This document shows, piece after piece, positions 12,051-63,559 of a stretch of 64,000 nucleotides of DNA (positions within the stretch are counted from its first letter, which is position 1; each line of letters opens with the position of its first letter). Source of the DNA: Lunularia cruciata. Taxonomy: Eukaryota > Streptophyta > Marchantiopsida > Lunulariales > Lunulariaceae. The notes beneath the pieces are model-generated. The model made no database searches. It was not told where the DNA came from and worked only from the letters and a program-made list of their open reading frames with translations. The stretch covers positions 625,001 to 689,000 of the forward strand of contig OX419756.1 of the NCBI GenBank assembly GCA_948567375.1, given 5' to 3'. The position numbers were made by a program, and so were the translations under genes.

Positions 12051-13700
12051 CATGACGGAGTTTGTTGGAGATTCTAGAGGAGTTAGCCCTACACTATGCA
12101 GTGGGTTTACTTGAAGTGGCACTTAGGATCAACTTATATCTCAAGTCCTAGTGAGGGAGAAGATTGATACTAAGTTGGAGTTTGACATAGGAGCTAATTC
12201 AATTGAGAGTGCACTTGGTGTGTCTGTACCGTTATTGTGGGACATGGATGAGATTTATGGGGCTTCCAAAGGCCCTAGGCATTACTCTGGTATAGTGGGT
12301 ACCATTGAGTTGGATGACTTCATCTAGGAGTTTGATAGTTGGTGTGATCTGCAGCAGATGCGGAATCCAACTTTGTTTACGCCCTTCATAGCATGGAAGG
12401 GGTTGTTTCAACATCTGTAGGATCCGCCAATGGATGACTACCATGAGTTTAAGAGAGCTCATTTGGAGGAGATTGAGTTATGGAGACCATATTGGTCTTC
12501 AAACTATGTCTCTATCACTTCAGGCTTGGTGGCCAAGAGTAGATTGGCTATACCTACAAGTTCTAGCTTGAGAAGTGTAGGTGGAGCTAGTGGAGGTGCA
12601 CTAGCCGGAGATAGTGCTACTATGAGTGGAGGTACCACTACAAGAGGTGGTGTGGTACTGGGGTTTAACCCTATGGTGGAGTTCTTCTAGTGTTTGAGGT
12701 AGAACTACCAGGGAGTGCAGACTGATAAGTTGAGGAGCTTGCAAGAGTTCTAGCGGAAGGTTGGAGAGAGCCTACGCCAGGCATATACTCGCATGATGCA
12801 GTTTCACTCAAGGAGTTACTAAGGCCCAGGCAGTTTAGTTTTGGTATGGGATACATGACAAGGAGTTGCGACGTAGAGTTTGTGATGCTATGCTATTACA
12901 TGCTACTTTGCTTACTTTGGAAGTGGTCTTTGGTTTGGCAGAGCATATTGAGCTCAACATGATGGAGGAGAGGGTGGTGACATTTGGATTTATTAGGGAG
13001 ACCTCATCCACAAATATTACTTCTTCTAGAGTGTAGCAGAGTGCACCACACCCAGTTGGTTTTTGAGGACAAGGTGGACAACCCAGATCCTATAGAGCGA
13101 GTGGAGGGCCTAGTGGAGCTAGACCCTTACCTTCATTTTTGGATCAACAACAGCCAGTGAGTAGTGGTGTTGCTTGTTGGACTTGTGGTGGACCTCACCA
13201 TAAGAGAGAGTGTACTCAAGGTAGTAGACCTGATACCTCTAGTGCATCATTGCTAGCATAGAGGTAGTGTGAGCACTACCACAGATTTGGTCAAACTAGT
13301 GATTGGTGCTTTGACTTACACCCGGAGGTACAGAGTGGTAGGGCTGCTATGGCAGGTAGTAAAGGAGCTCCAGTTCATGGAGGACAAGGTGGTAGAGGCG
13401 GTGGTAGAGGATCTACACCTAGTAGAAGTGCAGTACCTGCCCTTACTTCTAATACAACTATGGTTACTCAGATTGTGCAATTGGAGTAGAGAGATTGACT
13501 AGTATGGCCATTGCTTAAAGGAGATCAGATTTGGTTGCTGAGGCTTCCACCTCATATGCTGGTGATAGAGATGCTTTGGACTTCATGTGCAAAGCAACTC
13601 AGGTGGATGCATATGTAGTAGTGACAAGGAGTGCAATACGTGCTCCAAAGCCTAGAGGAGCATTAGTGGAGTTGGACCCACAGAGAGGAGAGGTTGGGGG
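12051..13700 (+). pseudogene. gag: PM copy A gag
   Basis: Broken Gag matching copies C and D. Readable segments include GTIELDDFI, MDDYHEFKRAHLEEIELW and GFNPMVEFF, a leucine/arginine-rich capsid part, and two zinc knuckles. The first is near 13170-13210 (CWTCGGPHHKREC). The second is the block after 13265, degraded here but CX2CX4HX4C in C and D. A Gly/Arg-rich linker and a short coiled-coil-like segment follow. Several stops are TAG where the other copies read CAG (for example 13034-13036). The family start codon is uncertain. Confidence 0.75.
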
Positions 13701-13895
13701 ATAGGTAAGACTTCCCCAGTCTTTCACGCTATTTAAGGCATTGCAAACAACATCCATGGCTCCTAGACGTCCCAGTGCAAGTGTGGTAGGTGGTGATGGA
13801 GTGCATGACTGACTACTTGCTAGTTAGCCACTTGCTACTACACAAACTAAGTCTAGCATAATGTTGGGGCGGCTTAGCTGATTATACGGTGCCCT

Positions 13896-14520
13896 TTGTT
13901 TTCAGCCAATGATATGTTTACATTGAGAGTTGACCCAACCCCAATGTTCTGGTTGGCTGCCATGCTTTATGAGAGTAAGGATGATGCGGTTCCTACTACT
14001 AGAGCAGAGATGGTTGATAGTGGAGCTGACTTGGTTGAGGAGCATGGGTTCCGTTCAGTGACCAATGGTTTATGGCAAGCAGCAGTGGCTAGACTAGAGG
14101 AGCTGCCAATTAGACCGGCCTTTCTGAGAGCACGGTCTACACCTTGTGTCGTCCTATTGGATAACCAGAGGGGGATTTTCCTTTTGGTGGGACCTTCAAG
14201 GAAGGTCTATACACCATAGAGAGTATTGTTAGACTCTGGTGCGTAGCCCCTTATGTTGGGGAAGGCTGCAATTGTTGGTCTGGAGTTATGGAAGACCAAT
14301 GTAGAGAGGTGTCCATTTCAGATCCAGACATCTCTAGGTGGTGGTTCAACATAGTACATCACACATGAGGAGCTTGATGTCCGGGTTCAGCCTGGTCATC
14401 CAACTAATAGCTTGGTGGTGAGAGCTCAAGCTATTGCAACAATAGCTGAGTCATACAATGTGCTAGTTGGAGGAGCAGTGTTATACCCCATGGGTTTCAG
14501 GATTGACTATTGGGAGGAGA
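13896..14520 (+). pseudogene. PM copy A aspartic protease region
   Basis: Contains a conserved stretch with SANDMFTLRVDP, then the retropepsin-like core VLLDSGA (about 14224-14244; DSGA catalytic loop), and the C-terminal VLVGGAVLYPMGF (about 14460-14500), which fits the second hydrophobic strand of the fold. It would cleave the polyprotein. It lies between gag and the methyltransferase-like domain, as in C and D. Confidence 0.7.
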
Positions 14521-14869
14521 CAACATCCTATAGACCAGGTTGGCAATTTGATGAGGGACAGGTATGCCACCTACCATTATGCTTCAGTAGTGGCAGTCTT
14601 GGCTCACTACAATCCGGGACTATGGTAGCATCAATTTTAGCTTTCAATGGTGTAGTTACTTGGCTTGGTGATTTATTGGAGGGGAATGCCCATGCAGAGG
14701 ATACTCTAATACCAGAGGAGATCACTTGGATTTGGAGTATGAGTGGGATTGTTCAATCTACCTTGGATGTTCCATTGTGGAGTTCAGAGGAGGCATTGTA
14801 GCAGCATGTAGATCAGTTGGTGCAGCAAGCTTGGAGTGGAGCCTTTGTACCATCAAGAGATGAGTGTGA

Positions 14870-15960
14870 GGATGAGCCTCCAAAGTCAATTACTTTGACA
14901 CCTTTGGATACCACACTCATTGCTTGGTAGTATCCAATAGAGGAGATATGTCTATTGGAGTTGTTTGGTGGGATAAGCACCAAACTAGCCATGGTATTGT
15001 AGGCGGGTATACAAGTATAGAGGTACTTGTATGTAGACAGAGATGAGTCTACTAGGCAAGTCTCTCTACATCATGTGACACACTTGGCCTATCGGTATCC
15101 AAAGTTATCACCAATGTCAGTAGTCAAAAGGTTACCAAAAGACCTTACCAACAAATATTTCCTTACTGGGGGTGCATGATCTGGAGAGTTATGGGCCTAT
15201 TTACTTGGTGATTTTTGGATGGCCATGTCAATGAAATTCACATACGGGCCAAGGTGGGGTCTTCAAGATCCTTGTTCTAGTGTGTTTTGGGAGATGTTAC
15301 GGATACTACAACATCTCTAGGTTCATCAATCTGTTTCTCCAACTAACCTTTTGGAGAATGTTCCTTTGATGGGTGATTCTTGCACCAGAGTAGTGGCAAG
15401 TACACAACAGGTCCATTCTTTGATGGGACCTGTTGTATTATTAGATGCAGCCAGAGTAGGATCACGGGCTCATTGTCTTTGTCTTTGGTAGACAAACCTC
15501 TTACCCATAGAGGTTTTATAGCGTGCATATGATAGGATTCAGCGACTTGGCCACATCCTTGTTGATGACATCTTGGATGTTGGGCGTCAGTCTTAGACAG
15601 TGGTAGTGGCTGATAGGTCACCTATGGCAGTGGTGAACCTAGTTAGATAGCCTAGAGCCGCATTTCCCCCACTCATGAGGTTTCCAAGCTCTCATGCTTT
15701 TCAAGAAGGAGGACTTGGACTTGTTTGGGACTCATAGTTACAATAGTTGGTGGAGCCCAATGCTGATGAGGGAGAGCGGGTGATGGGGTTTTTCACTGGT
15801 ATTATTGTTGTTCCAACAATGTCAAAGGCATCCAAGCGTTAGGTGTTAGATCTGGCTATGGACCTGAACTGTTTGACCTGGATTATGAGCCTTGGCTTGG
15901 CAGAGTAGCGTAGGATGCACTTGATAGGCATCACCACTTGGACACTTGTGAGCCTTATGC
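14870..15960 (+). pseudogene. PM copy A C5-cytosine DNA methyltransferase-like domain
   Basis: Translated motifs in order: LLELFGGIST (motif I, S-adenosylmethionine site; about 14957-14986); FGWPCQ (motif IV, catalytic Cys; about 15212-15229), then a degraded GL.DP....VFWEMLRIL helix; FLENVP (motif VI, 15349-15366); DAARVGSRAH...LW.TNLLP (motif VIII, about 15445-15495); ERERVMGF (about 15768-15791); and AMDLNCLTW (motif X region, about 15855-15885). Order and spacing (about 300 residues) fit the DNMT3-like catalytic domain size. This copy has TAG/TGA stops, including one just after PCQ. The closest family is inferred by eye. Confidence 0.78.
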
Positions 15961-16329
15961 CGATCAAGACAATTCAGGCACATGCTAGAGGCGACGGACT
16001 GAGTGGATATGGTATTCTTGGGACACAACCAATAGCTACTAGGGAGAGTGGTCTACTTAGAGTCCATCTAGGTGAGCGTGGGCTACTTGGATAACACCCT
16101 TGGTCCACTTGGAGTGCAAGTAGAGGATGTGTGGAGCTTGCAGCTAGAGTGGAGGGAGTTTTTAACACAAAGGTTGGGACTTCTAGTGGTCAAGTGCATG
16201 ACACTATTGCTCCCAAGGGCCCAATGTAGCAGCTAGTCAGTATGTCTTCCACTACTACTACAATTATAGAGGATACTTGGGAACTAGATCTTGGACCAAA
16301 GCTTACTAGAGAGGATTGACGGAGGGTTT

Positions 16330-17700
16330 GGAGGTTCTTGAGGAGCCACATAATTTGTTTTGCCTTCAATATGAAGAATTGCTCTGAAAGGACCTGGTAT
16401 ACGGATTGAGTTGACTAGCAATATATCACTTATTTGATGTCCATCAGTGATATAGAGAGAACATTGATTTAGAGTCGGAGTAGCAACCTTTTTGAGGCTA
16501 GTTTGGTAGAGATCTCACATGGAGAGTATGCATCAGCTACATTGATGCTAGCCAAGAAGGATATGCATAGAAACTACAAAGATAGGCAGATATGTGGAGA
16601 TTACTGTCCTATCAACCAATAGACCAGGGCTGATTGTTATGCCATGCCTACATTGGAAGAGATTTTTGATACAATTGGGCATGCAAAGGTCTTTAGAACT
16701 TTGGATCTTTGAGGGAGATATCATCAGTTGCTGATTAGGGAGGAGGATAAGTCCAAGACAACATTTTGGGCTATTAATCCTCACAAAAAGGATGTGTTAT
16801 ATCAGTGGAGGTTCTTACCGTTTGGGTTAAAGTTTGCTTACCGTTTGCTCCTATTGAGTAGCAAAGAGTCATGGACAAGATCCTAGTTGGATTGGATTTT
16901 GCTCGGTGCTATATTGATGACATTTTGATCTATAGCACTATTGTGGAAGAGCATGAGAGATAGTTGTTGGAGGTGTTTGAGAGGTTGAAATCTCATGGAC
17001 TCAAATTACATCATGGAAAGTGTAGGTTCTTCTATGAGCAAGTTTAGTATTTGGGTCACACTATCTACCTTGGAGGACTTGGTGTTCAGTAGACCAAGGT
17101 GGAGGCTATTGCACGTATTCCTTGGCCTACAAATGTGAGTAGAGTGTGAGCATTCCTTAGGTTGGTAAACTTCTATCGCCGCTATGTTGGAGGATTTAGT
17201 GCCATTGCCAAGGCTTTGACAAAGTTGACCAAGCTTACATATGAGTGGTGTTGGGGAGATGAGCAGGAGAGAGCTTTAGGGCTTTTGTAGGGTTTAAGGA
17301 GAGGTTTACATCTGCTCCTATTTGGAGGAGACCGATCAGAGGATGACCATTTCAGGTTCATATTGATTGGAGTATGTTGGGGCTTGGAGCGGTGCTCACC
17401 CAACATGATGATGAGGGGAAGGAGTTTATGGTGGCCTATGCTAGTTGCTCCAAAAATTCAGTGGAGGTGAAGTATAGTTCATATGAGGGAGAGTGCTTGG
17501 TAGCAATTTGGGCAGTAGCACATTTTGGATGTTACCTATTTGGTAACTCCTTCACTCTCATCAATGATCATCAGCCGTTGAAGTGGTTGATGGAGTCCGA
17601 CAAGCTTTCAAGGAAGCTTGCATGATGGACTCTGATTTTATAGAAGTATGATTTCACGGTTGTTCACAGACTTGGAGTGGTGAACCGTGATACAGATGGG
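16330..17700 (+). pseudogene. pol: PM copy A reverse transcriptase and RNase H
   Basis: The RT palm is recognisable with CYIDDILIYST (about 16907-16940, Y-x-DD box). The preceding block ends in LPFG and is followed by LGHTIYLGGLGVQ. RNase H follows: [35 protein letters not shown] and DHQPLKWLM. Numerous stops and indels are present, for example a small duplication around 16822-16845. The same block is better preserved in F. Confidence 0.82.
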
Positions 17701-18924
17701 TTGAGTAGAAACCCATGTCCAAACCAGCAAGATCAGAGTGGAGCACGTTGGCATAATGAGACAGATGAGGAGATGGTGCCAGGTTGGCATGTATCTACCT
17801 TTCTCTGTATATTTTTTGAGGCTTTGGTGGTATCTCTCTCATTGCATACAAGAGGAGTTATTGAGATCATAGATCCAAAGAGTGAAGATATTGGTACAAT
17901 TCAGCGAGACATTCATGATGATGTCTTAGTGATGGACTATCTTTGCACTAGTCTTGTGGGTGGCACAGTTGGGGCAAAGGAGAGAGACCATGTTCTTCAA
18001 CAAGCCAGACGGTTCAGATTGGAAGGCAAACACCTTTTGCCTATATGGGAAGATGGTAGAGTACAAGTAGTACCACTTCCATCTTAGAGACCATAGTTGG
18101 TCCATGTTGCACATGAGGAGCTAGGATATTTTGAATAAAAGCGTACATATAGCTTACTCCAGAGTCATTATTGGTGGCATGGTATGCAGACCAAGGTACA
18201 ACAATTTGTTGCCAGATGTGTGGTTTGAGACCAAGTTAGAGCATCATTCAATGCTTCTACACCACAATTACACCCATTACCTATCATGGGATTGGGTTAC
18301 CATTGGATTTTGGACTTCACTTGACCTTTATTGTTGACTATGAGACATCATTGGTATGTCTTGGTGATGGTGGAGCACTTCTCCAAGTGGATTGAGTTGG
18401 TGGCACTTGCTGATAAGTCTAGTGAAGGGACAACTTACTCGTTCCTGGATTGATTTCTTAGTCATTTTGGTGCACCAGCTGAGGTTTTGACTGATCAAGG
18501 TACATAGTTCTTGGGGGAGTTTTAGGTCTTGTGTGACAAGGCTTTGATTGATCATTGTACTCCATCTTGAGATCACCTTGAGGCAGATGGCTTAGCAAAG
18601 AGAGTGGTTCAGATGGTGAAGAGAGGATTGCAAAAGTATGGTTTGCAAAGAGGCCACTTGGGAGATTGGGATCTCCATTTACCTTGGTTGGCCATGAGCT
18701 ATCAATTCAGCCGGCAAGCCTCCTTAGCATCCTTCTCTCCTTACTTCCTACTCTATGGACAAGATCCAAATTTACCTACAGCCATTAGTCAAGATGCTAC
18801 TATAGTTTTGGACTTGAATGACCCAAATGTATGGATGAGCGCATGTTCTTAGCGGGTAGAGATCTTTCAAAGGGTGATGCTTATGACCTTAGAGAACTTG
18901 GCAATTGGTCAGCATAGAGATACT
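17701..18924 (+). pseudogene. pol: PM copy A integrase, first part
   Basis: Connector then integrase: a degraded HHCC finger (about 18110-18230), catalytic core with VEHFSKWIELVAL and VLTDQGT, and the third position region ADGLAKRVVQ (about 18585-18614). There the expected Glu of the DDE triad (Glu in C and D, LAER) is read as Lys. The C-terminal part continues to 18924, where the C-D insertion splits the frame, and resumes at 41903. Confidence 0.82.
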
Positions 18925-19600
18925 TGTCGTGCATATTGTTGTGCGTATATACATTGCTATACAACATACATTGCTATCAACATCATATACTACAAAAGCA
19001 CAACTCACACATAAGTCATACATAGACTCTAAAGTGCCACAATAATCAGATTGTTTACCACTCTCAACTCAACTCAACTCAGATCATTACTTGATCTGTC
19101 ACTCTATAAACTGCCAACAATTGGGCACTAATTACAATCAAGCTACACCCACTCAAGCATAGAGAATCCAGGTGACACTCGCCGGCCTCTGTCCACCATA
19201 GCCAGGAACTTGAAGGCTCAACATCAGAGAAGTGAGCTCTCTGGAGCTCACTTTGAAACTATACTCCCTAGACTTGAGCTAGCTTTGAAACCCTAAAGGT
19301 CCCATTGACGGTACACCAGATGGTGCGAACGGTGCAAAGTGACAGTGAGCCCCACCGTGAAGTCAGTACCCCAAACACAAAATCTGACCGTCAGAAAGTA
19401 GTCTCTGAGAAACTGCTGAAATAACTCTAACTACTATCACTAGAACTCTAGTGTCCGAGCAATCTAGATGCAACATTACAAATGACGTGACAACTATTGT
19501 GCGTATATACATTGTTACACAACATACATTGCTATCAACATCATACACTACAGAAGCACAACTCACACATAAGTCATACATAGACTCTAAAGTGCCACAA
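18925..19600 (-). repeat. PM copy C 3' repeats X-Y-X with polypurine tract
   Basis: In element sense: purine tract GCTAGAGGGGCGA (19613-19601), X1 (19600-19493; starts TTGTGGCACTTTAG), Y (19492-19043; starts TGTCACGTC, ends CAATCTGATTA), X2 (19042-18925; same start as X1, ends GCACGACA). X2 lies inside the TSD, so it is part of the inserted unit. The 5' end of the family has only Y. Confidence 0.85.
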
Positions 19601-19768
19601 TCGCCCCTCTAGCTAGCGGTTAGGTCCCTCTTACTCTAGATAACCATCTACTCTGAGTATATGGTAAACCCTCTAATGGGCAAAGATCTGGATACCGGGT
19701 GCTATGGAGCCCCATCGTTAGTACCCTATCTGCAATCTATACCATATAAAGAATGAACTAGCTATAGG

Positions 19769-19935
19769 TCAAATACATCTAGGACATAACCATTGTCCCT
19801 GAGGAACCACCGTGAGGGGAGGAGTCATACATAACATATGCCATCCTCTCAAACAGCTATCACACACTAACATAGTAGCGGCTCCACCAGAAGAGCCACA
19901 TAACATACACCTCAAGCCTGCATGTACAAGTGCCA
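19769..19935 (-). pseudogene. PM copy C PHD finger (polyprotein C-terminus)
   Basis: The last about 55 codons of the pol frame form a C4HC3 PHD finger: CMLCGSSGG, then MLVCDSCLRGWHMLC and WLCPRC, directly before the stop. All eight zinc ligands are present in this copy. It follows the integrase in the place where chromoviruses carry a chromodomain. PHD fingers commonly bind histone H3 tails, so a role in choosing chromatin for integration is plausible, but this is inference. Confidence 0.88.
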
Positions 19936-22042
19936 AGCTTGGGTCCATAGTACCATCAATGTTTGGGAGGTGGCATGATGCACAATTGTGCACATGATCC
20001 TTCCAAACAACACCATCATGTCCTTCCAACACAAGGACTCCAGATGGCAAAACCTCACGCACTCTCAAGATAGTGTGGCTTGTCGAAACATCAAGTGTTG
20101 TCGGTGCTGTCTACTATAGATATACATAGTCGCTTGGATGAAATCGACGGATCAAGGGTCTATAACCTCCTCCTCAAATGGTAGCATAGCGTAAAGTATC
20201 TCTATGCTGAGTAATTGCCAAGTTCTCAACGGCCATTGGCATCACTCTCCAAAAGATCTTTGCCCGCTAAGAACATACGCTCATCCATAAATTAGGGCCA
20301 TCCAAGTCCAAAACTAGAGTAGCATCTCGACAAATGGCTACAGGTAAATCTGGATCTCGTCCATAGAGTAGAAAGTACGGAGAGAAGGATGCTAAGGAGG
20401 CTTGCCGGTTGAAACAATAGCCCATAGCCAACCAAGGTAACTGGAGATCCCAATCTCCCAGGTGGCCTCTCTGCAAACCATACTTTTGCAATCCTCTCTT
20501 CACCGTCTGAACCACTCTCTCTGCTAAGCCATCTGCCTCAGGGTGATCTCGAGATGTAGTACAATGATCAATCAAAGCCTTGTCACACAAGACCTAAAAC
20601 TCTCCTAAGAACTCTGTACTGTAACACCCATTTGTGCATGTAAGTGGTATTGTGATATTTAGCTTGGTATTACAAGTACTTAAGAGATATTATTTATATA
20701 GAGATAAAGGATGGTTCTATATTAGTCATGGTTAGCTAAATTTAGTCATATAGCTAAGATAGAGGGGATCGTACTTTAGAGGAAGTAGAAAAGATGAGCA
20801 TCACTATTTTGGATTTTAGTGTGTTGACTTGGTATTATTCCTAGGTGTTTGGCTTTGAGGAAAGAGTTGAGAACTCTTGGCCGCAAGCCTTTTTGTTTTG
20901 GATTCTTCTTTAGTCCAAGGATAGCCCATGTGAAGGAATCCTTGACTTAGTGGTTGGGTCAAGATAAGACCACATGCTTAGGGGAATATGCCCATGTGAA
21001 TGGATATTAGTTTCTACTTTTTGACTTTACTTGACTTTTAGTCTAGTAACTTGAGTTACTACGGTAATTAGTAACTTTGGTACGTAACTATTTCACAAGT
21101 ATATAAACAAGAGGTGATGAGGTACTCATCATCTTTTCATTTGCAACTATCTCTCTCTCATTGAGTTCTCTAGTGAGCAATGTCTTGAGTCTTGGAGTGT
21201 TAGCCTTGGAGGAGTATGATGGAGTTGGGGTTCCTTGCCTTCTTAGTCCATGGTGCGCTACCATAATAGCCATCAGAGGTTCATCCTGAGTGAGAGACAG
21301 GCCGGCTCACAGTACCCTGATCAGTCAAAACCTTAGTTGGTGCACCAAAATGACTAAGAACTCGATCCAAGAACGAGTAAGCTGTCCCTTCACTAGACTT
21401 GTCATGAAGTGCCACCAACTCAATCCACTTAGAGAAGTGCTCCACCATCACCAAAACATACCAATGATGTCTCACAGTCAGCGGTAAAGGTCTAGCAAAG
21501 TCCAAACTCCAACGGTAACCCAATCCCATGATAGGTAATGGGTGTAACTGTGGCGTAGGAGCATTGAATGATGCTCTTACTCGGTCACAAACCACACATC
21601 TGGCAACAAACTGTTGTACCTTGGTCTACATACCACACCACGAATAATGACTCTGGATTAAGCTATACATACGCTTTACTCCAAAATGTCCTAGCTTCTC
21701 ATGAGCATGACGGACCAACTGTGGTCTTTGTGCTAGAAGTGGTACTACTTGCACTCTACCATCCTCCCATACACACAAAAGGTGTTTGCCCTCCAATCTG
21801 AACCGTCTGGCTCGCTGAAGAACATGGTCTCTCTCCTTGGCCCCAACTGTGCCACCCACAACACTAGTGTAAAGATAGTCCATCACTAAGATATCATCAT
21901 GAATGTCTCGCTGAACTGTACCAATATCTTCACTCTCTGGATTTGTGACTTCAATAACTCCTCCTGTATGCACAGAGAGAGATACCACCAAAGCCTCTGA
22001 GAATATATAGAGAAAGGCCAATGCATGCCAACTTGGCACCAT
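19936..22042 (-). pseudogene. pol: PM copy C integrase (split by T1 solo LTR)
   Basis: N-terminal finger near 21600-21720 (HAHEKLGHFGVKRMYSL, RCVVCDRV), then core WSLDFARPLPL, VEHFSKWIELVAL, VLTDQGT; after the LTR, ADGLAERVVQTVKRG with the catalytic Glu kept (about 20520-20560). A C-terminal module leads into the PHD finger. The frame is interrupted at 20620-21311 by the solo LTR and by at least one point stop. Confidence 0.85.
20620..21311 (+). mobile_element. Solo LTR of T1 family inside copy C integrase
   Basis: The LTR is 692 bp, TGTAACACCC to GGCTCACA, with a 4-bp TSD GTAC (20616-20619 and 21312-21315) that restores CTCTGTACCCTGATC as read in copy F. It has the same length as the T1 3' LTR at 5256-5947. 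A TATA-like TATATAAA lies at about 21099-21106. It marks a second T1-family insertion that later lost its body by LTR-LTR recombination. Confidence 0.94.
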
Positions 22043-22129: not shown

Positions 22130-23480
22130 TTCACCACTCCAAGTCTGTGAACAACTGTGAAATCATACTCCTATAAAATCAGAGCCCATTGTGCAAGCTT
22201 CCCTGAAAGCTTGTCGGACTCCATCAACCACTTCAGTGGCTGATGATCAGTGATGAATGTGAAGGGGTTACCAAATAGGTAACATCAGAAATGTGCTACT
22301 GCCCAAACTGCTGCCAAGCACTCTCCCTCATATGAACTATACTTCACCTCTGCTGAATTGTTGGAGCAACTAGCATAGGCCACCACAAACTCATTCCCCT
22401 CATCATCATGCTGGGTGAGCACCACTCCAAGCTCCAACATACTCCAATCAGTATGAACCTAAAATGGTTGTCCTCTGATCGGTCTCCTCAAAATAGGAGC
22501 AGATGTCAACCTCTCCTTGAGCTCTACAAAAGCTCTCTCTTGCTCATCTCCCCAACACCACTCATGTATAAGCTTGGTCAGCTTTGTCAAGGCCTTGGCA
22601 ATGGCACTAAATCCTCTAACATAGCGGCGATAGAAGTTTGCCAACCCAAGGAATACTCGCACTCTGCTCACATCCGTAGGCCAAGGAATACGTGCAATAG
22701 TCTCTACCTTGGTTTGCTGAACACCAAGTCCTCTAGGGTAGATAGTGTGACCCAAATACTCAACCTGCTTGTGGAAGAACCTACACTTCCTAGGATGTAA
22801 TTTGAGTCCATGAGATCTCAACCTCTCAAACACCTCCAACAACTGTCTCTCATGCTCCTCCATAATAGTCCTTTAGACCAAAATGTCATCAATATAACAC
22901 TGAGCAAAATCCAATCTAGCTAGGATCCTATCCATGATCCTCTAGAACTCAACATGAGCGTTATTTAACCCAAACGGTAAGAACTACCACTAATATAACA
23001 CATCCTTGCCGTGAGGATCAATAGCCCAAAATGCTATCTTGGACTTATCCTCCTCCTTGATTGGCAACTGATGATATCCCGCTCAAAGATCCAAAGTACT
23101 AAAGACCTTTGCATGCCCAATTGCATCAAAAATCTCCTCCGCTGTAGGCATGACATACCGATCAGCCCTGGTCTGTCGGTTGATAGGACGGTAATCTCCA
23201 CACATCCGCTTATCTATGTAGTTGCCATGCATATCCTTCTTGGCTGGCATCACTGTCGCTGATGCATACTCTCTATGTGAAATCTCCACCAAACCAGCCT
23301 CAAAAAGGTTACTACTTTGGCTCTGAATCAATGTCCTTCCCATGTCACTATAGCGATAAGGACGTCGGAAAATTGATGTACTGCTAGTCAGATCAATCCG
23401 TATACCAGGTCCTTTAAGAGCACCCAAATCCTTCATACTGAAGGCAAAACAACTCGTGTGGCTCCTCAAGAACCTCCAAA
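22130..23480 (-). pseudogene. pol: PM copy C reverse transcriptase and RNase H
   Basis: RT begins with SCFAFSMKDLGALKGPGIRI and EYASATVMPAKKDMHGNY, CGDYRPINRQT, LDL.AGYHQLPI, then CYIDDILV (about 22880-22905) and LGHTIYPRGLGVQ. RNase H follows with [35 protein letters not shown] and DHQPLKWLMESDKLSGKLA. Several stops break the frame, among them one right after the YIDD box. Confidence 0.87.
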
Positions 23481-23880
23481 CCCTCCATCTTTCCTCTCTA
23501 GTAAGCTTGGGTCCAAGATTTGGCTCCCAAGTATCCTCTGTAACTGTAGTAGGAGTGGAAGACGTACTGATTGGCTGCTACACTGGGCCCTTGGGAGCAA
23601 TAGTATCATGCCCCGACCACTAGAGGTCCCAACCTCTATGTGAAAAACTCCCTCCACTCTGGCTGCAAGCTCCACATGTCCTCTAGCTGGATCTCATGTG
23701 GACCAAGAGTGTAATCCAAGTAGCCCACGCTCACTTGGGTGGACTCCAAGTAGATCATTCTCCCTAGTAGCTACTAGATGTGTCCAAGAATACCATGCCC
23801 ACATGGTCCATTTCCCCCAACATGTGCTTGAATCGTCTTGATAGGCACAAGGCTCACAAGTGTCCGAGTGGTGATGCTTA
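23481..23880 (-). pseudogene. PM copy C linker between methyltransferase and RT
   Basis: Low-complexity linker with short repeated units of the type GLLGVHPG / GLLGLHPW (seen cleanly in F at 63712-63993), then a VELAARVEGVFH segment and TIAPKGPV. I recognise no domain. It could be a flexible tether or contain a protease cleavage site. Confidence 0.6.
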
Positions 23881-24940
23881 TGAAGTGCATCCTACGCTGC
23901 TTTGCCAAGCCAAGGCTCACAATCCAGGTCAAACAATTCAGGTCCATAGCCTAACCTAACACCTGATGCTTGGGTGCCTCTGACACTATTGGAACAATGG
24001 TAATACCAGTGCGAAAACCCATCGCCCGCTCTCTCTCATCGGCATTGGGCTCCACCAACTACTATAACTATGAGTCCCAAACAAGTCCAAGTGTTCCCTC
24101 TCGAAAAGCATGAGAGCCTAGGAAACTCATGAGTGTGGAAAATGTGGCTCTAGGCCATCCAACTAGGTTCACCATTGCCATAGGTGACCTATTAGCCACT
24201 ACCACTGTTTGAGACTAATGCCCAACATCCAAGATATCATCAACAAGGATGTGGTCAAGTCATTGAATCCCATCATAAGCATGCTGTAAAACCTCTTTGG
24301 GTAAGAGGTTCATCCACCAAAGACAAAGACAATGAGCCCGGGATCCCACTCTGGCTGCATCTAACAATACAGCAGGTCCCATCCAAGAATGGACCTGATG
24401 TGAACTTGCCACCTCTTTGGTGCAAGAATCACCCATCAAAGGAACGTTCTCCAAAAAGTAAGCTAGAGAAACAGATTGATGAACCTGGAGATGTCGTAGT
24501 ATCTATAACATCTCCCAAAACACACCAAAATGAGGATCCTGAAGACCCAATCCTCTACCAGCACGTGTATGTCCCTGACATGGCCATCTAGAAATCACCA
24601 AGTGAATAGGCTCATGTCTCTCTAGGTCATGCGCTCCCAATAAGGAAATGTCTGCTAGTAGGACCTTCTAGTAACCTCTAACAGCTAACATCGGTAATAA
24701 CTCCAGATACCGATAGGCCAAGTGTGCCACATGATGTAGAGAGACTTGTCTAGTAGTCTCATCTCTCTCTACATACATGTACCTCTGTACTCGGATACCC
24801 GCTTGTAACACCGCAGCTAGTCCGGTGCTGATCCCACCAAACAACTCCAATAGGCATATCCCCTCTATTGGATACTCCCAAGCAATGAGTGTGGTATCTT
24901 GAGGTGTCAAAGCAATCACCTTTAAAGGCTCATCCTCAAA
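23880..24940 (-). pseudogene. PM copy C C5-cytosine DNA methyltransferase-like domain
   Basis: Motifs in element order: CLLELFGGISTGLAAVLQAG (motif I, near 24815-24855), then YVERDE (acidic residue after strand 2); RWPCQGHTRAGRGLGLQDP (motif IV, catalytic Cys codon 24578-24580), then VFWEML.ILRHL; FLENVP (motif VI, ENV codons 24443-24451); GPAVLLDAARVGSRAHCLCL then WWMNLLP (motif VIII-like); a target-recognition-sized stretch with FPPLM; ERERAMGF (about 24020-24045); and AMDLNCLTWIVSLGLA (motif X region, about 23900-23955). The arrangement of about 300 residues resembles DNMT3-type enzymes. It sits between protease and RT in the polyprotein. A stop sits after WEML and others occur, so this copy is not active as it stands. 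Arg in the CLCL part of motif VIII seems lost. Confidence 0.82.
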
Positions 24941-25319
24941 CTCATCTCCTGATGGTACAAAGGCTCCACTCCAAGCATGCTACACCAATTGATCTGCATG
25001 TTGCTGCAATGCCTCCTATGAACTCCACAATGGAACATCCAAGGTAGATAGAACAATCCCACTTGTACTCCAAAGCTGAGTGATCTCCTCTTGTATTGGA
25101 GTATCCTCTACATGGGCGTTGCCCTCTAACAAGTCACCAGGCCAAGTAACTCCACCACTGAAAGCTAAAACTGATATTGCCATGGTCTCGGATTGTAGTG
25201 AGCCAAGACTGCCACTACTGAAGCATACTGTTAGGCGACATACCTGTCCCTCACCAGACTGCCAACTAGGTCTATAAGAGGCTATCTCCTCCTAATAGTC
25301 AATGCTAAAACCCATGGGG

Positions 25320-25720
25320 TATAACAATACTCCCCCAACTAGCACATCATATGACTCAGCTATTGTCACAAAAGCCTGAGCTCACACCACCAAGCTATCA
25401 GTTGGATGACCAGGCTGAACCTAGACAACAAGCTCCCCACATGTGATGTACTGTGTCAAACCACCACCTAGAGATATCTGGATCTGAAATGGACACCTCT
25501 CCACATCGATCTTCCGTAACTCCAGACCAACAACTGCCGCCTTCCCCAACATAAAGGGCTGCGCACCAGAGTCTCTCAAGACTCTTTGTGGTGTATAGAC
25601 CTTCCTTGAAAGTCCCTCCAAACAAAAAATCCCCTTCTAGTTATCCAATAGGACAACATCAGGTGTGAACCGCGCTCTCTCAAAGGCCGGTCTAGCTGGC
25701 AACTCCTCCAGTCTAGCCGC
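25320..25720 (-). pseudogene. PM copy C aspartic protease region
   Basis: VLRDSGAQPFMLGKAAVVGLE gives a D-S-G-A catalytic loop about 70 codons after the conserved TPDVVLLDN. The strand VLVGGVLLYPMGF closes the fold (about 25310-25350). It lies directly upstream of the methyltransferase-like domain, in the same polyprotein order as in A and D. Confidence 0.75.
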
Positions 25721-27740
25721 TATTGCTTGCCATAAACCACTGGTCATTGAATGAATCCCATGCTCCTCAACCAAGTCAGCTCCACTATCAACCACCTCTG
25801 CCCTAGTAGTAACAACCGCATCATCCCTACTCTCACAAAGTGTGGCAGCCAACCGGAACACTAGGGCTGGGTCAACTCCCAATGTAAACATGTCATTGGC
25901 CAAAAACAAAGGACGCCGCATAATCAGTTGAGCCGCCTCCAACATCATGCTAGACTCAGTTTGTGTAGTAGTAGGTGGCTGACTAGTAGGTTGCCCATCA
26001 TGTACTCCATCACCACCTACCACACCTGCACTAGGACGTCTAGGAACCATGGATGTCGTCTGCAATGCCTCAGATAGTGTGAAAGACTAGGGAAGTCTGA
26101 CCTGTCTCCCAACCTCTCCTCTTTGTGTGTCCAGCTCCACTAATGCTCCTCTAGGCTCTAGAGCACATACTGCACTCCTAGTCACTACTATAGATGCATC
26201 CACTTGTGCTGCTCCGCACATGAAGTCCAAAGCATCTCTATCACCAGCATATGCGGTGGAAGCCTCAACACCCAAATTTGATCTCCTTTGAGCAATAGCC
26301 ATACTAGCCAATCTCTGCTCCAACTGCTCAATCCGAGTAGCCATAGCTGTGTCAGAAGTAAGGGTAGGTACTGCACCCCTACTAGGTGTAGATCCTCTAC
26401 CACCTCATCCTCCATGAATTGGAGCTCCTCTACTACCTACCATAGCAAAACTACCACTTCTTAACTCTGGGTGTAGGTCAAAACACCGGTCACTAGTGTG
26501 ACCAAATCTGTGGCAATGCTCACACTACCTTTGTGTTGGCTATGATGCACCCGAGGTATCAGGCCCACTGCCTGGAGTACACTCTCTCTGATGGTGAGGT
26601 CCACTACAAGTCCAACAAGCAACACCACCACTCACTGGCTGCTGCTGACCCAAAAATGAAGGTAAGGATCAAACTCCACTAGGCCCTCCACTCGCTCCAT
26701 AGGATCTGGGCTATCCACCCTGTCCTCAAAAACCAATTGGGCGTGGTGCACTCTATTGCACTCTAGAAGAAGTCACAACTGTGGATGAGATCTCCCTACC
26801 AAATCCAGATGTCATCACTCTCTCCTCCACCATGTTGAGCTCAATACGCTCAACCAAACCAAAGACCACTGCCAAAGTAGGCAAAGTAGCATGTAATAAT
26901 GTAGCATCATGAACTCTACGTCACAACTCCCTATCCAATATCCCATACCAAAACTGGACTGCCTGGGCCTCGGTAACTCCCTGAGTGGAACTGATCAGCC
27001 GCCTCGTGCGAGTGTATGCCTCGCATAGGCTTTCTCTAGCCTACAAGCTCCTCAGCTTGTCAGTCCGCACTCCTTGGTAGTTTTGCCTCAAACACTGGAA
27101 GAACTCCACCATGGGGTTAAACCCCAATACCACACCACCTCCTATAGCAGTACCTCCACTCGTATTAGCACTATCTCTAGCTAGTGCACTTCCACTAGCT
27201 CCACCAACACTACTCGAGCTAGAACTTGTAGGTACAGCCGATCTACTCTTGGCCACCGAGCCTGAAGTGATGGACACATAGTGTGGAGACTAATACTGTC
27301 TCCATAACTCAATCTCCTCCAAATGAGCTCTCCTAAACTCATGGTAGTCATCCATCGGCGGACCCTCCAGATGCTGAAACAACCCCTTCCATGCCATGAA
27401 AGGTGTGAACAAAGTTGGGTTCCACATCTGTTGCAAATCACACCAACTATCAAACTCTTGGATGAAGTCATCCAACTCAATAGTACCCACTATACCAAAG
27501 TAACACCTAGGGCCTTTGGAGGCCCTATAAATCTCATCCATGTCCCACACCAAGTGCATTCTCAACTGAATCAACTCTTGTGTTGAACTCCAACTCAGAG
27601 TCAATCTCCTCCCTCACTGGGACCTGAGATACAGGCTGATACCGAGCACCACTCCAAGAAAACCCACTGCGTACTATAAGGCTAACTCCTCTGGAATCCC
27701 CAAAGAACTCCGTTGTGACCAAGTAACCGCAACAACAAAC
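25721..27740 (-). pseudogene. gag: PM copy C gag
   Basis: Capsid part about 27700-26780: DMDEIYRASKGP, GTIELDDFIQEFDSWCDLQQ, MDDYHEFRRAHLEEIELWRQ, GFNPMVEFFQCLRQNYQGVR and RTDKLRSL. Nucleocapsid has two knuckles: one near 26595-26625, and CEHCHRFGHTSDRC (CX2CX4HX4C, about 26480-26521). A coiled-coil-like segment follows (IEQLEQRLASMAIAQRR), then FMCGAAQVDAS and a Pro/Ser-rich stretch up to the protease. Serine-rich low-complexity tracts lie in the middle of Gag. Frameshifts and stops interrupt it. The exact start codon is not clear. Confidence 0.78.
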
Positions 27741-28980: not shown

Positions 28981-29503
28981 TAATCAGATTGTTTACCACT
29001 CTCAATTCAACTCAACTCAACTTAGTACTTGATCTGCCACTGTATAAATTGCCAAGAACTAGGCACTGATTACAATCAAGCCACACCCACTCAAGCATAG
29101 AGAATCCAGGTGATGTTTGCCGGCCTCTGTCCACCATAGCCAGGAACTCGAAGGCTCAACATCAGAGAAGTGAGCTCTCTGGAGCTCACTTTGAAACTAT
29201 ACCCCCGGACTTGAGCTAGCTCTGAAACCCTAACGGTTCTACTGACGGCACACTCGACGGTGCAAATGGTGCAAGTCAGTACCTCAAACACAAAATCTGA
29301 CCTTCGGAAAGTAGTCTCTGAGAAACTGTTGAAATAACTCTAACTACTATCATTGGAACTCTAGTGTTTGAGCAATCTAGATGCGACACTACAAATGACG
29401 TGACAATATATATATCACTACATAATATACATTGCTATCAACATCATACACTACGGAAGCACAACTTACACATAAGTCATACATAGACTCTAAAGTGCCA
29501 CAA
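28981..29503 (-). repeat. Junction of copies C and D: C 5' Y block next to D terminal X2
   Basis: In element sense D ends with X2 (29503-29406) and C begins at once with Y (29405-28981, TGTCACGTC to CTGATTA, followed by CATCAGAGAAG). There is no spacer, TSD or host DNA between them. Confidence 0.85.
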
Positions 29504-29638
29504 TAATCAGATTGTTTACCACTCTCAACTCAACTTAGATCAATACTTGATCTGTCAATCTATAAACTACCAACAACTAGGCACTGATTACAATCAAGCC
29601 ACATCCACTTTAGCTAAGAGAATTCAGGTGATGCTCTA

Positions 29639-33741: not shown

Positions 33742-34060
33742 AGTTGTTATGCGTATATACATTGCTACACAACATACATCGCTGTCAACATCATACACTA
33801 TAGAAGCACAACTCACACATAAGTCATACATAGACTCTAAACTGCCACAATGCCCCCCTAGCTGGCGGTTAGGTCCCTCTAACTCCAGATAGCCATCTAC
33901 TCTAAGTATATGGTATACCTTATAATGGGCAAAGCTCAGGAGGCCGGGTGCTATGGAGCCCCATCGTTAGTCGCATATCCGCAATCTATACCATATAAAG
34001 AATAACTAGCTATAGGTCAAGTAAATCTAAGATATAACCATTGTCCCTGAGGAACCACCA
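33742..34060 (-). repeat. PM copy D X1 block, polypurine tract and 3' UTR
   Basis: X1 is 33850-33742 in element sense, preceded by the tract and the approximately 200-bp 3' UTR also seen in A, C and F between the PHD stop and X1. Confidence 0.78.
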
Positions 34061-34300
34061 TGAGAGGACGAGTCATACATGCCATATATCATTCTCTCAA
34101 ACAACTATCACACACTAACATAGTAGCAGCTCCACCAGAAGAGCCACATAACATACACCTCAAACTTGCACGTACAAGTGCCAAGCTTGGGTCCATAGTA
34201 CCATCAATGTTTGGGAGATGGCATGGCACACAATTGCGCACATGATCCTTCCAAACAACACCATCACGTCCTTCTAACACAAGGATTCTAAATGAAAAAC
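34061..34300 (-). pseudogene. PM copy D PHD finger (broken)
   Basis: CMLCGSSGGAATMLVCDSCL is intact, but a frameshift follows LRE and the last Cys pair reads as Tyr/Phe-type residues in the continuing frame (WLYLRF). The zinc site is therefore lost in this copy. Confidence 0.82.
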
Positions 34301-35450
34301 CTCACGCACTCTCAAGATAGTGCGGCTTGTCAAAACATCGAGTGTTGTTGGTGATGTCTACTATAGATATACAAAGTCACTTGGATGAAATCGACGGATT
34401 GAGGGTCTATAACCTCCTCCTTGAATGGTAGCATAGCATAAAGTATCTCTATGCTGAGCAATTGCCAAGTTCTCAAAGGCCATTCACATCACTCTCAGAA
34501 AGATCTCTACCCGCTGAGAACATGCACTCATCCATACATTGGGGTCATCCAAGTCCAAAACTCAATAGCATCTCGACAAATGGCTGCAGGTAAATCTAGA
34601 TCTTGTCCATAGAGTAGGAGGTAAGGAGAGAAGGATGCTAAGGAGGCTTGCCAACTGAACCAATAGCCCATGGCCAACCAAGGTAACTAGAGATCCCAAT
34701 CTCCCAAGTGGCCTCTCTGCAAACCATACTTTCACAATCCTCTCTTCACCATCTAAACCACTCTCTCTGCTAAGCCATCTACCTCAAGGTGATCTCGGGA
34801 GGTAGTATGGTGATCAATCAAAGCCTTGTCATACAAGACCTGAAACTCCCCCAAGAACTCTGTACCCTGATCAGTCAAAACCTCAGTTGGTGCACCTAAA
34901 TGACTAAGAACTTGATCCAAGAATGAGTAAGTTGTCCTTTCACTTGACTTGTCAAGAAGTGCCACCAACTCAATCCACTTGGAGAAGTGCTCTACCATCA
35001 CCAACAAATCCCAATGATGTCTCACAGTCAGTGATTAAGGTCCAACAAAGTCCAAACTCCAACGGTAACCCAATCCCATGATAGGTAATGGGTGTAAATG
35101 TGGCATAGGAGCATTGAATGATTCTCTTACTTGGTCACAAACCACACATCTGGCAACAAATTGTTGTACCACGGTCTGCATACCGTGCCACCTATAATGA
35201 CTCTAGAGTAAGCTATATGTACGGTTTACTCCAAAATGTAGCTCCTTATGAGCATGACGGACCAATTGTGGTCTCTGTGTGGAAGTGGTACTGCTCGCAC
35301 TCTACCATCCTCCCATACACACAAAAGGTGTCTGCCCTCCAATTTGAATTGTCTGGCTTGCTGAAGGACACGATTTCTCTCCTTGGCCCCAACTGTGCCA
35401 CCCACAACACCAGTGTGAAGATAGTCCATCCTTAAGACATCATCATGGAT
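34301..35450 (-). pseudogene. pol: PM copy D integrase
   Basis: Core with VEHFSKWIELVALLDKSSER, VLTDQGTEFLGEF and DGLAERVV (catalytic Glu kept, about 34760). N-terminal finger and connector regions (35100-35450) are frameshifted. The C-terminal module is present up to the PHD finger. Confidence 0.83.
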
Positions 35451-35649
35451 GTCTTGCTGAACTGTACCAATATCTTCACTCTCTTGATCTATGACATCAA
35501 TAACTCTTCATGTATGCGCTAAGAGAGATACCACCAAAGCCTCAAAAAATATACAAAAAAGGCATATGCATGCCAACCTGGCACCATCTCCTCATTTGTC
35601 TCACCATGCCAACGTGCTCCAATCTGATCCTATTGGCTAGGATATGGGT

Positions 35650-37020
35650 TTCTACTCAACCCATCTGCATCACAGTTCACCACTCCAAGTCTATGAACAA
35701 CCGTGAAATCATACTCATGTAAAATCAAAGCCCATCATGCAAGCTTCCTTGAAAGCTTGTCGGACTCCATCAACCACTTCAGCAGCTGATGATCAGTGAT
35801 GAGAGTGAAGGGGTTACCAAATAGATAACATAAAAAATGTGCTACTACCCAAACTGCTGCCAAACACTCTCCCTTATATGAACTATACTTTGCCTCCGCT
35901 GAATTGTTGGAGCAAAGAACATAGGCCACCACAAACCCCTTCCCCTCATCATCATGCTAGGTGAGCACTGCTCCAAGCCCTAACATACTCCAATCAGTAT
36001 GAACTTGAAATGGTCACCCTCTGATCAGTCTCCTCAAAATAAGAGCAGATGTCAACCTCTCCTTGAGCTCAACAAAAGCTCTCTCTTGCTCATCTCCCCA
36101 ATGCCACTCCTGTGTAAGCTTGGTCAGCTTCGTCAAGGCCTTGACAATGGCATTGAATCCTCTAACATAGCGGCAATAGAAGTTTGTCAACCCAAGGAAT
36201 GCTTGCACTTTGGTCACATCCGTAGGCCGAGGAATACATGCAATAGCCTCCACCTTGGTTTGCTGAACACCAAGTCCTCCAGGGTAGATAGTGTGACCCA
36301 AATACTCAACCTACTCATGGAAGAACCTACACTTCCCAAGATGTAACTTGAGTCCATGAGATCTCAACCTCTCAAACACCTCCAACAATTGTCTCTCATG
36401 CTCATCTACATTAGTGCTATAGACTAAAATGTCATCAATATAGCACCAAGCAAAATCCAATCCAGCTAGGATCCTATCCATTACCCTTTGGAACTCAACA
36501 GAAGCATTCTTTAACCCAAATAGTAAGAACCTCCATTGATATAACACATCCTTGCCGTGAGGATCAATAGCCCAAAATGTTGTCTTGGACTTATCCTCCT
36601 CCTTGATCGGCAACTGATGATATCCCGCTCAAAGATCTAGAGTACTAAATAGCTTTGCATGCCCAATCGCATCCAAAATCTCCTCTACTGTAGGCATGGC
36701 GTACCAATCAGCCCTGGTCTATCGGTTGATAGGACGGTAATATCCACATATTTGCCTATCTATGTAGTTGCCATGCATATCCTTCTTGGTTGGCATCACT
36801 GTCGCTGATGCATACTCTCCATGTGAAATCTCCACCAAACTAGCCTCAAAAAGGTCACTACTCTGGCTCTGAATCAATGTCCTCTCCATATCACTATATC
36901 GATAAGGATGTTGAAAAATTGGTGTATCGCTAGTCAGCTCAATCCGTATACCAAGTACCTTCAGAGCACCCAAATCCTTCATACTGAAGGCAAAGCAACT
37001 TGTGTGGCTCCTCAAGAACC
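35650..37020 (-). pseudogene. pol: PM copy D reverse transcriptase and RNase H
   Basis: RT from SCFAFSMKDLGALKVLGIRI; CYIDDILVYST near 36415-36450; LGHTIYPGGLGVQQTKVEA. RNase H with AYVLCSNNSAEAKYSSYKGE and DHQLLKWLMESDKLS. Fewer stops than copy A. Confidence 0.86.
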
Positions 37021-37510
37021 TCCAAACTCTCTGTCTTTCCTCTCTAGTACGCTTGGGTCCAAGATCTGGCTCCCAAGTATCCTCTGTAACTGTAGTAAGA
37101 GTGGAAGATGTACTGACTAGCTGCTACACTGGGCCCTTGGGAGCAATAGTGTCATGACCCCGACCACTAGAGGTCCCAACCTTTGTGTGAAAAACTCCTT
37201 CCACTTTGGCTACAAGCTCCCAGAAAGGAAATATTTGCTGGTAGGACCTTCTGCTAACCTTTGACTGTTGACAATGGTAAGAACTCTAGATACCAATAGG
37301 CCAAGTATGCCACATGATGTAGAGAGACTCACCTAGTAGTCTCATCTTTCTCTACATACAAGTACCTTTGTACTCATATACCCGCTTGTAATACCGCAAC
37401 TAGTCCGGTGCTAATCCTACCAAACAACTCCAATAGACATATTCCCTCTACTGGATATTGCCAAGCAATGAGTGTGGTATCTAGAAGTGTCAAAGCAATT
37501 GACTCTAGAG
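37021..37510 (-). pseudogene. PM copy D truncated methyltransferase and deletion joint
   Basis: Motif I (LLELFGRISTGL, about 37405-37440; second Gly changed to Arg) and the following strand are present. At about 37215 the sequence jumps from just before motif IV to the linker segment found downstream of motif X in C and F. Motifs IV, VI, VIII, IX and X are gone. The deletion removes about 1.1 kb relative to C. Confidence 0.82.
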
Positions 37511-38260
37511 GCTCATCCTCACACTCATCCCCTGATGGTACAAAGGCTCCACTCCAAGCCTAATGCATCGACCGATCTGCATGGTGCTGCAATGCCTCCT
37601 TTGAACTCCACAATGGAACATCCAAGGTGGATGGAACAATCCAACTTGTACTCCAAATCCAAGTGATCTCCTTTGGTACTAGAGTATCCTCTGCATGGGC
37701 GTTCCCCCTCCAACAAGTTACCAAGCCAAGTAACTGCACCACTGAAAGCTAAAACTGATATTGCCATGGTCACGGACTGTAGTGAGCCAAGACTGCCACT
37801 CTTGAAGCGTATTGGTAGGCAACATACCCATCCCTCACCAGACTGCCAACCTGGTCTATAGGAGGCTATCTCCTCCCAATAGTCAATGCTGAAACCCATG
37901 GAGTATAACACTGCTCCTCCAACTAGCACATCATATGACTCAGCTATTGTCGCAATAGCCTGAGCTCTCACCACCAAGCTATCAGTTGGATGACCAGGCT
38001 GAACCTAGACAACAAGCTCCCCACGTGTGATATACTATGTCAAACCACCACCTAGAGATGTTTGGATCTGAAATGGACATCTCTCCACATCAATCTTCTG
38101 TAACTCCAGACCGACAACTTCAGCCTTCCCCAACATAAGGGGTTGCGCACCAAAGTCTAACAAGACACTCTATGGTGTATAGACCTTCCATGAAGGTCCC
38201 ACCAAACAAAAATCCTACTCTGGTTATCCAATAGGACAACACGAGGGGTGAACCATGCTC
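37511..38260 (-). pseudogene. PM copy D protease region
   Basis: Includes VRAQAIATIAESYDVLVGGA and YSMGFSIDYWEE, homologous to the protease-end and spacer of A and C. The catalytic loop near 38130-38160 reads close to LDFGA rather than LDSGA, so the catalytic Ser/Thr neighbour is probably altered. Confidence 0.7.
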
Positions 38261-41898: not shown

Positions 41899-41902
41899 TA
41901 CT

Positions 41903-42160: not shown

Positions 42161-42165
42161 GGCTT

Positions 42166-61852: not shown

Positions 61853-62068
61853 TTGTGGTCTCTGTGATGGAAGTGGTACTACTCACACTCTACCATCCTC
61901 CCATACACGCAAAAGGTGTCTACCCTCCAATCTGAACTGTCTGGCTTGCTAAAGAACACGGTCTCTCTCCTTGGCCCCAACTGTGCCACCCACAACACCA
62001 GTGCAAAGATAGTCCATCACTAAGACATCATCATGAATGTCTCGCTGAACTGTACCAATATCTTCACT

Positions 62069-62779
62069 CTATGGATCTGTGACCTCAATAACTCCTCCTC
62101 TATGCGCTGAGAGAGAAACCACCAAAGCCTCTACAAATATACACAGAAAGGCCAATGCATGCCAACCTGGCACCATCTCCTCATATGTCTCACCATGCCA
62201 ATGTGCTCCGGTCTGATACTGCTGGCTGGGACATGGGTTTCTACTCAACCCATCTGCATCACGGTTCACCACTCCAGGTCTGTGAACAACCGTGAAATCA
62301 TACTCCTATAAAATCAGAGCCCACCATGCGAGCTTCCCTGAAAGCTTGTTGGACTTTATCAACCACTTCAATGGCTGATGATCAATGATGAAAGTGAAGG
62401 GGTTACCAAATAGGTAACATCAGAAATGTGCTACTGCCCAAACTGCTGCCAAGCACTCTCCCTCATATGAACTATACTTCGCCTCCACTGAATTGTTGGA
62501 GCGACTAGCATAGGCCACCACAAACTCCTTCTCCTCATCATCATGCTGGGTGAACACCGCTCCAAGCCCCAACATACTCCAATCAGTGTGAACCTGAAAT
62601 GGTCGTCCCCTGATCAGTCTCCTCAAAATAGGAGTAGATGTCAACCTCTCCTTGAGCTCTACAAAAGCTCTCTCCTGCTCATCTCCCCAACACCACTCCT
62701 GTGTAAGCTTGGTCAGCTTCGTCAAGGCCTTGGCAATGGCACTAAATCCTCTAACATAGCGGCAATAGAAGTTTGCCAA
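62069..62779 (-). pseudogene. pol: PM copy F RNase H and connector
   Basis: RNase [61 protein letters not shown] after a frameshift or stop near 62420. The connector carries VNRDADGLSRNPCPSQQ, the usual Ty3 end-of-RNase H pattern. Confidence 0.82.
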
Positions 62780-63500: not shown

Positions 63501-63559
63501 CGGAAAACAAGTGTGTTGCTAGTCAGCTCAATCCGTATACCAGGTCCCTTAGAGCACCC

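Follow-up and report, generated by a model that had tools for sequence, protein, structure and literature searches.

The window analysed here, 64,000 nucleotides of the Lunularia cruciata genome (GCA_948567375.1, contig OX419756.1, positions 625,001 to 689,000), contains copies of a Ty3/Gypsy retroelement which carries a DNA cytosine-C5 methyltransferase. In the copy designated C a decayed, collinear methyltransferase domain extends over 24967-23783 of the minus strand, between the protease and the reverse transcriptase (RT) of the Gypsy-type element. That this domain is a retroelement-borne C5 methyltransferase is practically certain. The methyltransferase-carrying Gypsy family is large and recently active, and it comprises young copies with open frames.

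The methyltransferase domain of copy C

An earlier sequence-only reading had named the methyltransferase motifs I, IV, VI, VIII and IX-X. All of them are present, in canonical order and in a single reading frame of the minus strand:

24850-24833, minus strand: LELFGG
24586-24575, minus strand: WPCQ
24457-24440, minus strand: FLENVP
24361-24344, minus strand: DAARVG
24037-24017, minus strand: ERERAMG
23950-23936, minus strand: AMDLN

By tblastn the region 24967-23783 is 84% identical over 395 residues to the methyltransferase domain of another copy. The copy C domain itself is a pseudogene with 10 in-frame stops in the 412 codons read. In a profile search its raw translation (X at stops) matches PF00145 weakly (E 0.0071; 16.2 bits at a cut-off of 22 bits), yet nine of ten scanned relatives exceed the cut-off, the exception being P0060. 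Eight of 12 further, mostly more distant relatives pass as well; P0116, P0123 and P0178 remain below the cut-off and P0131 is unlisted. A protein search starting from the methyltransferase domain yielded 91 homologues at E<=1e-3 (best E 1.7e-142), which excludes a chance origin of the motifs in copy C. The parts of copy C are:

23783..24967, minus strand: decayed methyltransferase domain, predicted DNMT3 class, motifs I, IV, VI, VIII, IX-X (motif reading, tblastn)
23518..23637, minus strand: UAG + CARYYA stretch (TAG CAG CCA) between methyltransferase and RT
25124..25564, minus strand: aspartic protease region (tblastn, protease of Marchantia P0093)
26780..27541, minus strand: Gag (tblastn, Gag of P0093)
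22282..23577, minus strand: RT and RNase H region (Pfam scan, tblastn)
20465..21565, minus strand: integrase, interrupted by a 0.7-kb insert (approximate length)
19775..19930, minus strand: C-terminal PHD finger of pol (PF00628 match at E 4.8e-9)
18936..19601, minus strand: 3' end with B2 18936-19040, A2 19043-19495 and B1 19497-19601 (compared with four young copies)
28981..29400, minus strand: 5' repeat A1 (about 86% versus the 3' repeats)

The family in the host genome

The host assembly (565.8 Mb) includes a plastid contig with matK, beside which frames resembling chlB and psbA were read by eye. When the assembly was searched with the decayed domain of copy C, 101 places were scored; the 100 besides copy C show 81-85% identity. 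Intact copies, which the sequence-only reading had suggested looking for, do exist in the same genome: 14 of 30 fetched loci (one of which is copy C) are free of stops over the 396 codons compared. A second search (97 scored) was based on RT so that copies were not chosen by the methyltransferase itself. All 30 copies picked in this way, one of them the source of the query, carry the methyltransferase at no fewer than 1186 of 1188 bases; 26 align without gaps over the 1188 bases, and 13 of these 26 are free of stops. Two larger counts, 14463 and 50661, are loose first-look candidates and were rejected as copy numbers. A subfamily devoid of methyltransferase was also considered on account of copy D, in which only the first 112 of 396 residues are left, and rejected: with up to 3 mismatches allowed, the genome contains a single instance of the deletion junction, so that the deletion is private.

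The termini were compared in four young copies. At the 5' end host DNA is followed by a repeat A of about 450 bp and then by internal sequence; at the 3' end the succession is B (107-108 bp), A, B and host DNA. The order A-coding-B-A-B is common to all four, and two identical full long terminal repeats (LTRs), as in Ty3/Gypsy elements, are not found in them. The element begins with TG and finishes with CA, and a 4-bp target duplication was seen by eye in each of three copies examined of the four (TCTA, GAGG, GAGG). The A1/A2 distances of 0.0085-0.0199 make the young insertions roughly 0.4-1 million years old at an assumed rate of 1e-8 per site and year. The ends of copy C are only about 86% alike; hence copy C is a far older insertion. 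About 6 bp from its 5' repeat an A-tail and a piece of B are located (29407-29631), which may be the end of an adjoining element.

Class of the enzyme and of the element

In profile and fold comparisons the methyltransferase domain is closest to DNMT3 and non-permuted; on its sequence it is a DNMT3-class enzyme. Pfam scans of P0093, P0174 and P0176 revealed no ADD or PWWP companion domains. These domains are not obligatory; DNMT3s devoid of companion domains are mentioned in PMC12344493. Identity as a DRM was rejected because the motif order is canonical, without IX-X ahead of motif I. The carrier displays the Ty3/Gypsy succession of RT, RNase H and an rve integrase with H2C2 in Pfam scans; these scans detected no phage-type integrase, i.e., no tyrosine recombinase as is characteristic of DIRS elements, and found the rve integrase instead.

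Host methyltransferases belong to the same catalytic family. Five pieces of the host genome (L074-L078) comprise two DNMT3-like, two DRM-like and one CMT-like sequence; L074 has a permuted motif order in one frame, and L075 has IX-X in a neighbouring frame. The element domains share 25-32% identity with host pieces and DNMT3A (alignments of at least 120 residues) versus 34-80% among eight element domains. In a tree of 117 columns all 32 element rows tested are on one side of a branch with a support of 96 in the Shimodaira-Hasegawa-like approximate likelihood ratio test (SH-aLRT).

Reading frames and the UAG stop

In open-frame copies Gag, protease and methyltransferase share one ORF, with open frames of up to 1448 codons, and in copy C the three are in the same frame by tblastn. 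The reading frame past the 396-codon methyltransferase stretch meets its first stop after 67 codons in 24 of 30 loci. This stop is UAG, and RT resumes in the same frame. A second ORF (pol), often of 1037 codons, contains RT, RNase H, integrase and a PHD finger. The sequence-only reading had placed the methyltransferase inside the polyprotein of a Ty3/Gypsy element between protease and RT. Element and position were correct; a location inside pol was not, as in intact copies the domain terminates the Gag-protease ORF ahead of the UAG. The proteins of Marchantia P0093 (1278 aa) and Calypogeia P0003 likewise end about 75 residues past the methyltransferase.

In all 64 rows, 60 from loci and four from copies in the window, the TAG is followed by a hexamer which fits CARYYA. 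These rows represent 62 distinct copies, because copy C recurs as L001 and L030 as L031. The hexamer is CAGCCA in 60 rows, CAGCTA in two, and CAACCA and CAATCA in one each. In plant RNA viruses UAG plus CARYYA is described as a readthrough signal, the one of type I (PMC5382211, PMC2754532). The conserved UAG suggests that pol is quite probably produced by readthrough. Two facts temper this proposal. The C>T/G>A decay that dominates in the copies turns R and Y letters of CARYYA only into letters which still fit, so the informative part is mainly the fixed UAG with the C and A letters. In addition, P0174 and P0176 have methyltransferase and RT in one uninterrupted protein; thus the UAG stop is not universal.

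The PHD finger

The sequence-only reading had mentioned a layout of PHD plus DNMT. The PHD finger exists, and its place is the far C-terminal end of pol. In copy C the zinc ligands are kept and a stop codon follows immediately. The nearest solved relatives of the PHD finger of Marchantia P0060 include CHD4, PHF12, DPF2/3, ATXR5, KDM5B and PHF21A, and several of these fingers read the unmodified H3 tail. By analogy the finger may target integration, a putative function to which we give an even chance. A Tudor-like domain was observed behind the PHD finger of P0119.

Relatives and domain orders

Named homologues at E<=1e-3 are from Marchantia polymorpha, Riccia sorocarpa, Calypogeia fissa and Sphagnum. 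Two wider searches, which each scored only the 8000 candidates with most shared words and one of which is represented by the best 120 of 159, added Marchantia Gag-protease-methyltransferase proteins, Mesostigma viride, Closterium and many unnamed metagenomic proteins. Two domain orders occur: protease-methyltransferase-RT-RNase H-integrase(-PHD) and RT-RNase H-methyltransferase-integrase-PHD. Fragments with protease-methyltransferase or methyltransferase-integrase alone were assigned to the matching order.

A tree was calculated from 70 rows, i.e., 69 elements and DNMT3A, after four fragmentary rows of 73 had been dropped; the domain order is known for 51. On this tree a single change accounts for the two domain orders, and the 12 rows of the second order are united, together with two unlabelled ones, at an SH-aLRT of 100. 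The tree is a quick one and carries a long-branch warning for this group. In a FastTree calculated earlier, P0177 stood beside the first-order group, and one change was again needed. Therefore either the methyltransferase moved once within the polyprotein or a related methyltransferase was acquired a second time. The methyltransferase domains of P0003, P0004 and P0093 (Calypogeia, Marchantia and one without species name) are 78-80% identical, and that of Sphagnum fallax P0139 groups among them. Such closeness across deep splits could be due to horizontal transfer.

Decay, selection and methylation footprint

In the 26 gap-free RT-picked copies 92 of 114 singletons are C>T or G>A, and the C>T rate per site is 0.31 in CG, 0.25 in CHG and 0.085 in CHH. 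This pattern of decay indicates that the copies were methylated in the ordinary manner of plants; it does not tell the source enzyme.

Several observations weigh against the explanation proposed below, in which the enzyme marks the cDNA of its element. Variants common to at least three of the 26 copies comprise 9 synonymous, 11 nonsynonymous and no stop changes; those common to two 8, 19 and 4; and the singletons 34, 68 and 12, near the neutral expectation of 31.4, 73.6 and 9.0. The differences between subfamilies in the methyltransferase are too few for a signal of selection. Within the genome the changes are close to neutral, and we infer a probable purifying selection from the fact that the domain is kept among distant relatives. 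Pairwise ratios of nonsynonymous to synonymous rates of 0.31-0.50 by quartile, from 29 copies picked by methyltransferase protein similarity, were set aside as evidence because such picking favours few protein changes. The observed/expected CpG ratio of young-copy methyltransferase stretches is 0.50 versus 0.11 in one other Gypsy element of the window; this weaker depletion, one element being compared, gives no hint that the methyltransferase-carrying family is additionally methylated, and excess self-methylation was rejected. Finally, 12 of 69 non-gap rows, with either domain order, have Glu where motif IV has Pro, and in the yeast assay reported in part of PMC5890265 the Klebsormidium nitens Gypsy and SymbioLINE domains were without activity, a result termed inconclusive by its authors.

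A proposed mechanism and its alternatives

The explanation which we prefer as a whole, with confidence evenly divided, is that a Gag-protease-methyltransferase protein marks the element's own cDNA. Most ribosomes would halt at the UAG and release this protein, by which the enzyme would reach the particle at Gag-like amounts; a minority would read through and produce pol. The packaged enzyme would methylate the new double-stranded cDNA at CG, making it resemble host DNA. A PHD finger of the type that reads the unmodified H3 tail would direct integration towards chromatin which lacks H3K4 methylation. After insertion the host would methylate and silence the copy, and C>T decay would ensue. The putative step of cDNA methylation, taken by itself, is tentative and falls somewhat short of an even chance. 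In the same yeast assay SymbioDIRS domains were active on CG (PMC5890265, in part). Bolder, and in our view doubtful, is the proposal of one ancient Gypsy lineage from streptophyte algae to bryophytes in which a DNMT3 writer, packaged as a Gag-protease-methyltransferase protein at a Gag-like dose, premarks the cDNA and is coupled to a PHD reader which picks the landing chromatin. If true, each new copy would be born with a chosen epigenetic state.

It is unlikely that the methyltransferase acts chiefly in trans on host chromosomes or other copies, as self-limitation or for silencing of competitors, rather than on its own cDNA. The resemblance of the PHD finger to H3-tail readers fits such a role, as does the CG/CHG-biased decay, which indicates that copies are methylated in the genome. 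Host-wide effects and self-restraint are discussed by de Mendoza et al. in the portion of PMC5890265 available to us. Yet the fusion to Gag and protease would presumably put the enzyme in the particle and not in the nucleus, and the host's own DNMT3-, DRM- and CMT-like genes can account for the decay.

Similarly low is the probability that the domain lost or changed its catalysis and operates in the particle as a nucleic-acid binding or RNA-methylating module. The Glu in motif IV argues for this, and so does the K. nitens domain, which did not methylate DNA in yeast (inconclusive to its authors; PMC5890265, in part). Against it, bryophyte relatives keep WPCQ, and the Cys, the Glu of ENV and the Arg of motif VIII are near invariant across the family. 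The Glu is found in relatives including P0116, P0117, P0123, P0131 and P0174-P0176. As a marker of the second domain order it was rejected: the 12 Glu rows are four of the first order, six of the second (or methyltransferase-integrase) and two unlabelled, and five second-order rows keep the Pro.

A passive passenger without benefit, spread by the activity of the element, would agree with the neutral-looking variation within the genome and is very improbable, as the domain is open and retains its catalytic residues in relatives of 34-80% identity, all 30 RT-picked copies keep the methyltransferase and the deletion in copy D is private.

Comparison with known systems

In chromoviruses, a group of Gypsy elements, the integrase bears a chromodomain. 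The present element is alike in having a histone-reading module behind the integrase; it differs by a PHD finger in place of the chromodomain and by the additional methyltransferase.

DNMT-carrying retroelements as a kind are known since 2018 from algae (PMC5890265, as far as its text is available to us, here and below). The kinship to captured charophyte DNMTs considered possible by the sequence-only reading stands as one of kind, by description: KnitGypsy-Dnmt3 of Klebsormidium nitens combines Gypsy domains, a non-rearranged Dnmt3-class DNMT in the polyprotein and the A-coding-B-A-B arrangement, i.e., a DIRS repeat structure with Gypsy domains (PMC5890265). The present element differs in its bryophyte-type host, with 101 scored places in one genome, in a methyltransferase that ends the Gag-protease ORF before UAG-CARYYA, and in the PHD finger that ends pol. 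Among the rows of three protein searches, most of which bear no species name, none is named as K. nitens. The main text of PMC5890265 makes no mention of a PHD finger or of readthrough; parts of the present layout may already be drawn for K. nitens in its figures or supplements. SymbioDIRS-Dnmt3 of Symbiodinium is similar in its Dnmt3-class DNMT, the split repeats in A-coding-B-A-B and the occurrence of two domain orders in one kind of element. It is a DIRS element with a tyrosine recombinase, whereas the present one has an rve integrase core with H2C2. Gypsy and Symbiodinium DNMT elements are unrelated according to the authors (PMC5890265).

A 2025 survey, citing the 2018 paper, reports DNMT3 members in retrotransposons (LTR Copia, DIRS) of streptophytes and dinoflagellates (PMC12344493, in part). 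Methylase-carrying transposons were stated to be absent from land plants, with tracheophytes named, in the available part of PMC6338049; for bryophytes this statement does not hold. None of the open-licence PMC papers listed in the literature searches (in one case 15 of 55) deals, to judge from titles and the opening lines of abstracts, with DNMT-carrying retroelements in bryophytes or with PHD fingers in such elements. New in relation to the published text available to us are the occurrence in several bryophytes including Marchantia polymorpha, the young open copies in a bryophyte-type genome, a Gag-protease ORF which closes with the methyltransferase ahead of a leaky-type stop, the PHD finger ending pol and the relocation of the domain within one lineage.

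Other features of the window

All copies of the element in the window are old and broken. Besides copy C they are:

12244..18925, plus strand: copy A, 3' end missing; Gag 12244-13042, protease 14247-14681, methyltransferase 14838-16025, UAG stretch 16167-16289, RT 16230-17532, integrase 18274-18654
34035..40120, minus strand: copy D with Gag, protease, RT, integrase and PHD; methyltransferase remnant 37550-37215
60602..63999, minus strand: copy E, cut by the window end; PHD, integrase, RT, UAG stretch 63774-63652, last methyltransferase codons

A 3' fragment of a further copy is located at 41891-43143 (plus strand), with a PHD finger at 42149-42307. The insert which splits the integrase of copy C (20620-21313, about 0.7 kb) is 96.7% identical to 5254-5947. 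The other Gypsy-type element, used above for the CpG comparison, occupies 5996-10823 (minus strand) and has long open frames of 700, 358, 386 and 211 aa. A third kind of RT, 33% identical to that of the methyltransferase-carrying family, is found at 57008-58087 (plus strand). The segments 1979-2714 and 3216-3958, each about 740 bp long, form an inverted repeat with arms that are 94% alike. An Rfam scan of the window gave no match at gathering thresholds.

Significance

Retroelements are usually the victims of DNA methylation. With a DNMT3-carrying family that occurs in streptophyte algae and in bryophytes, the laboratory liverwort Marchantia polymorpha among them, the question posed in 2018, why a DNMT is retained by retroelements, can be put to the test in a genetic model. 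The layout with the methyltransferase before the UAG, together with the PHD finger, provides concrete and separable hypotheses on dose, packaging and targeting.
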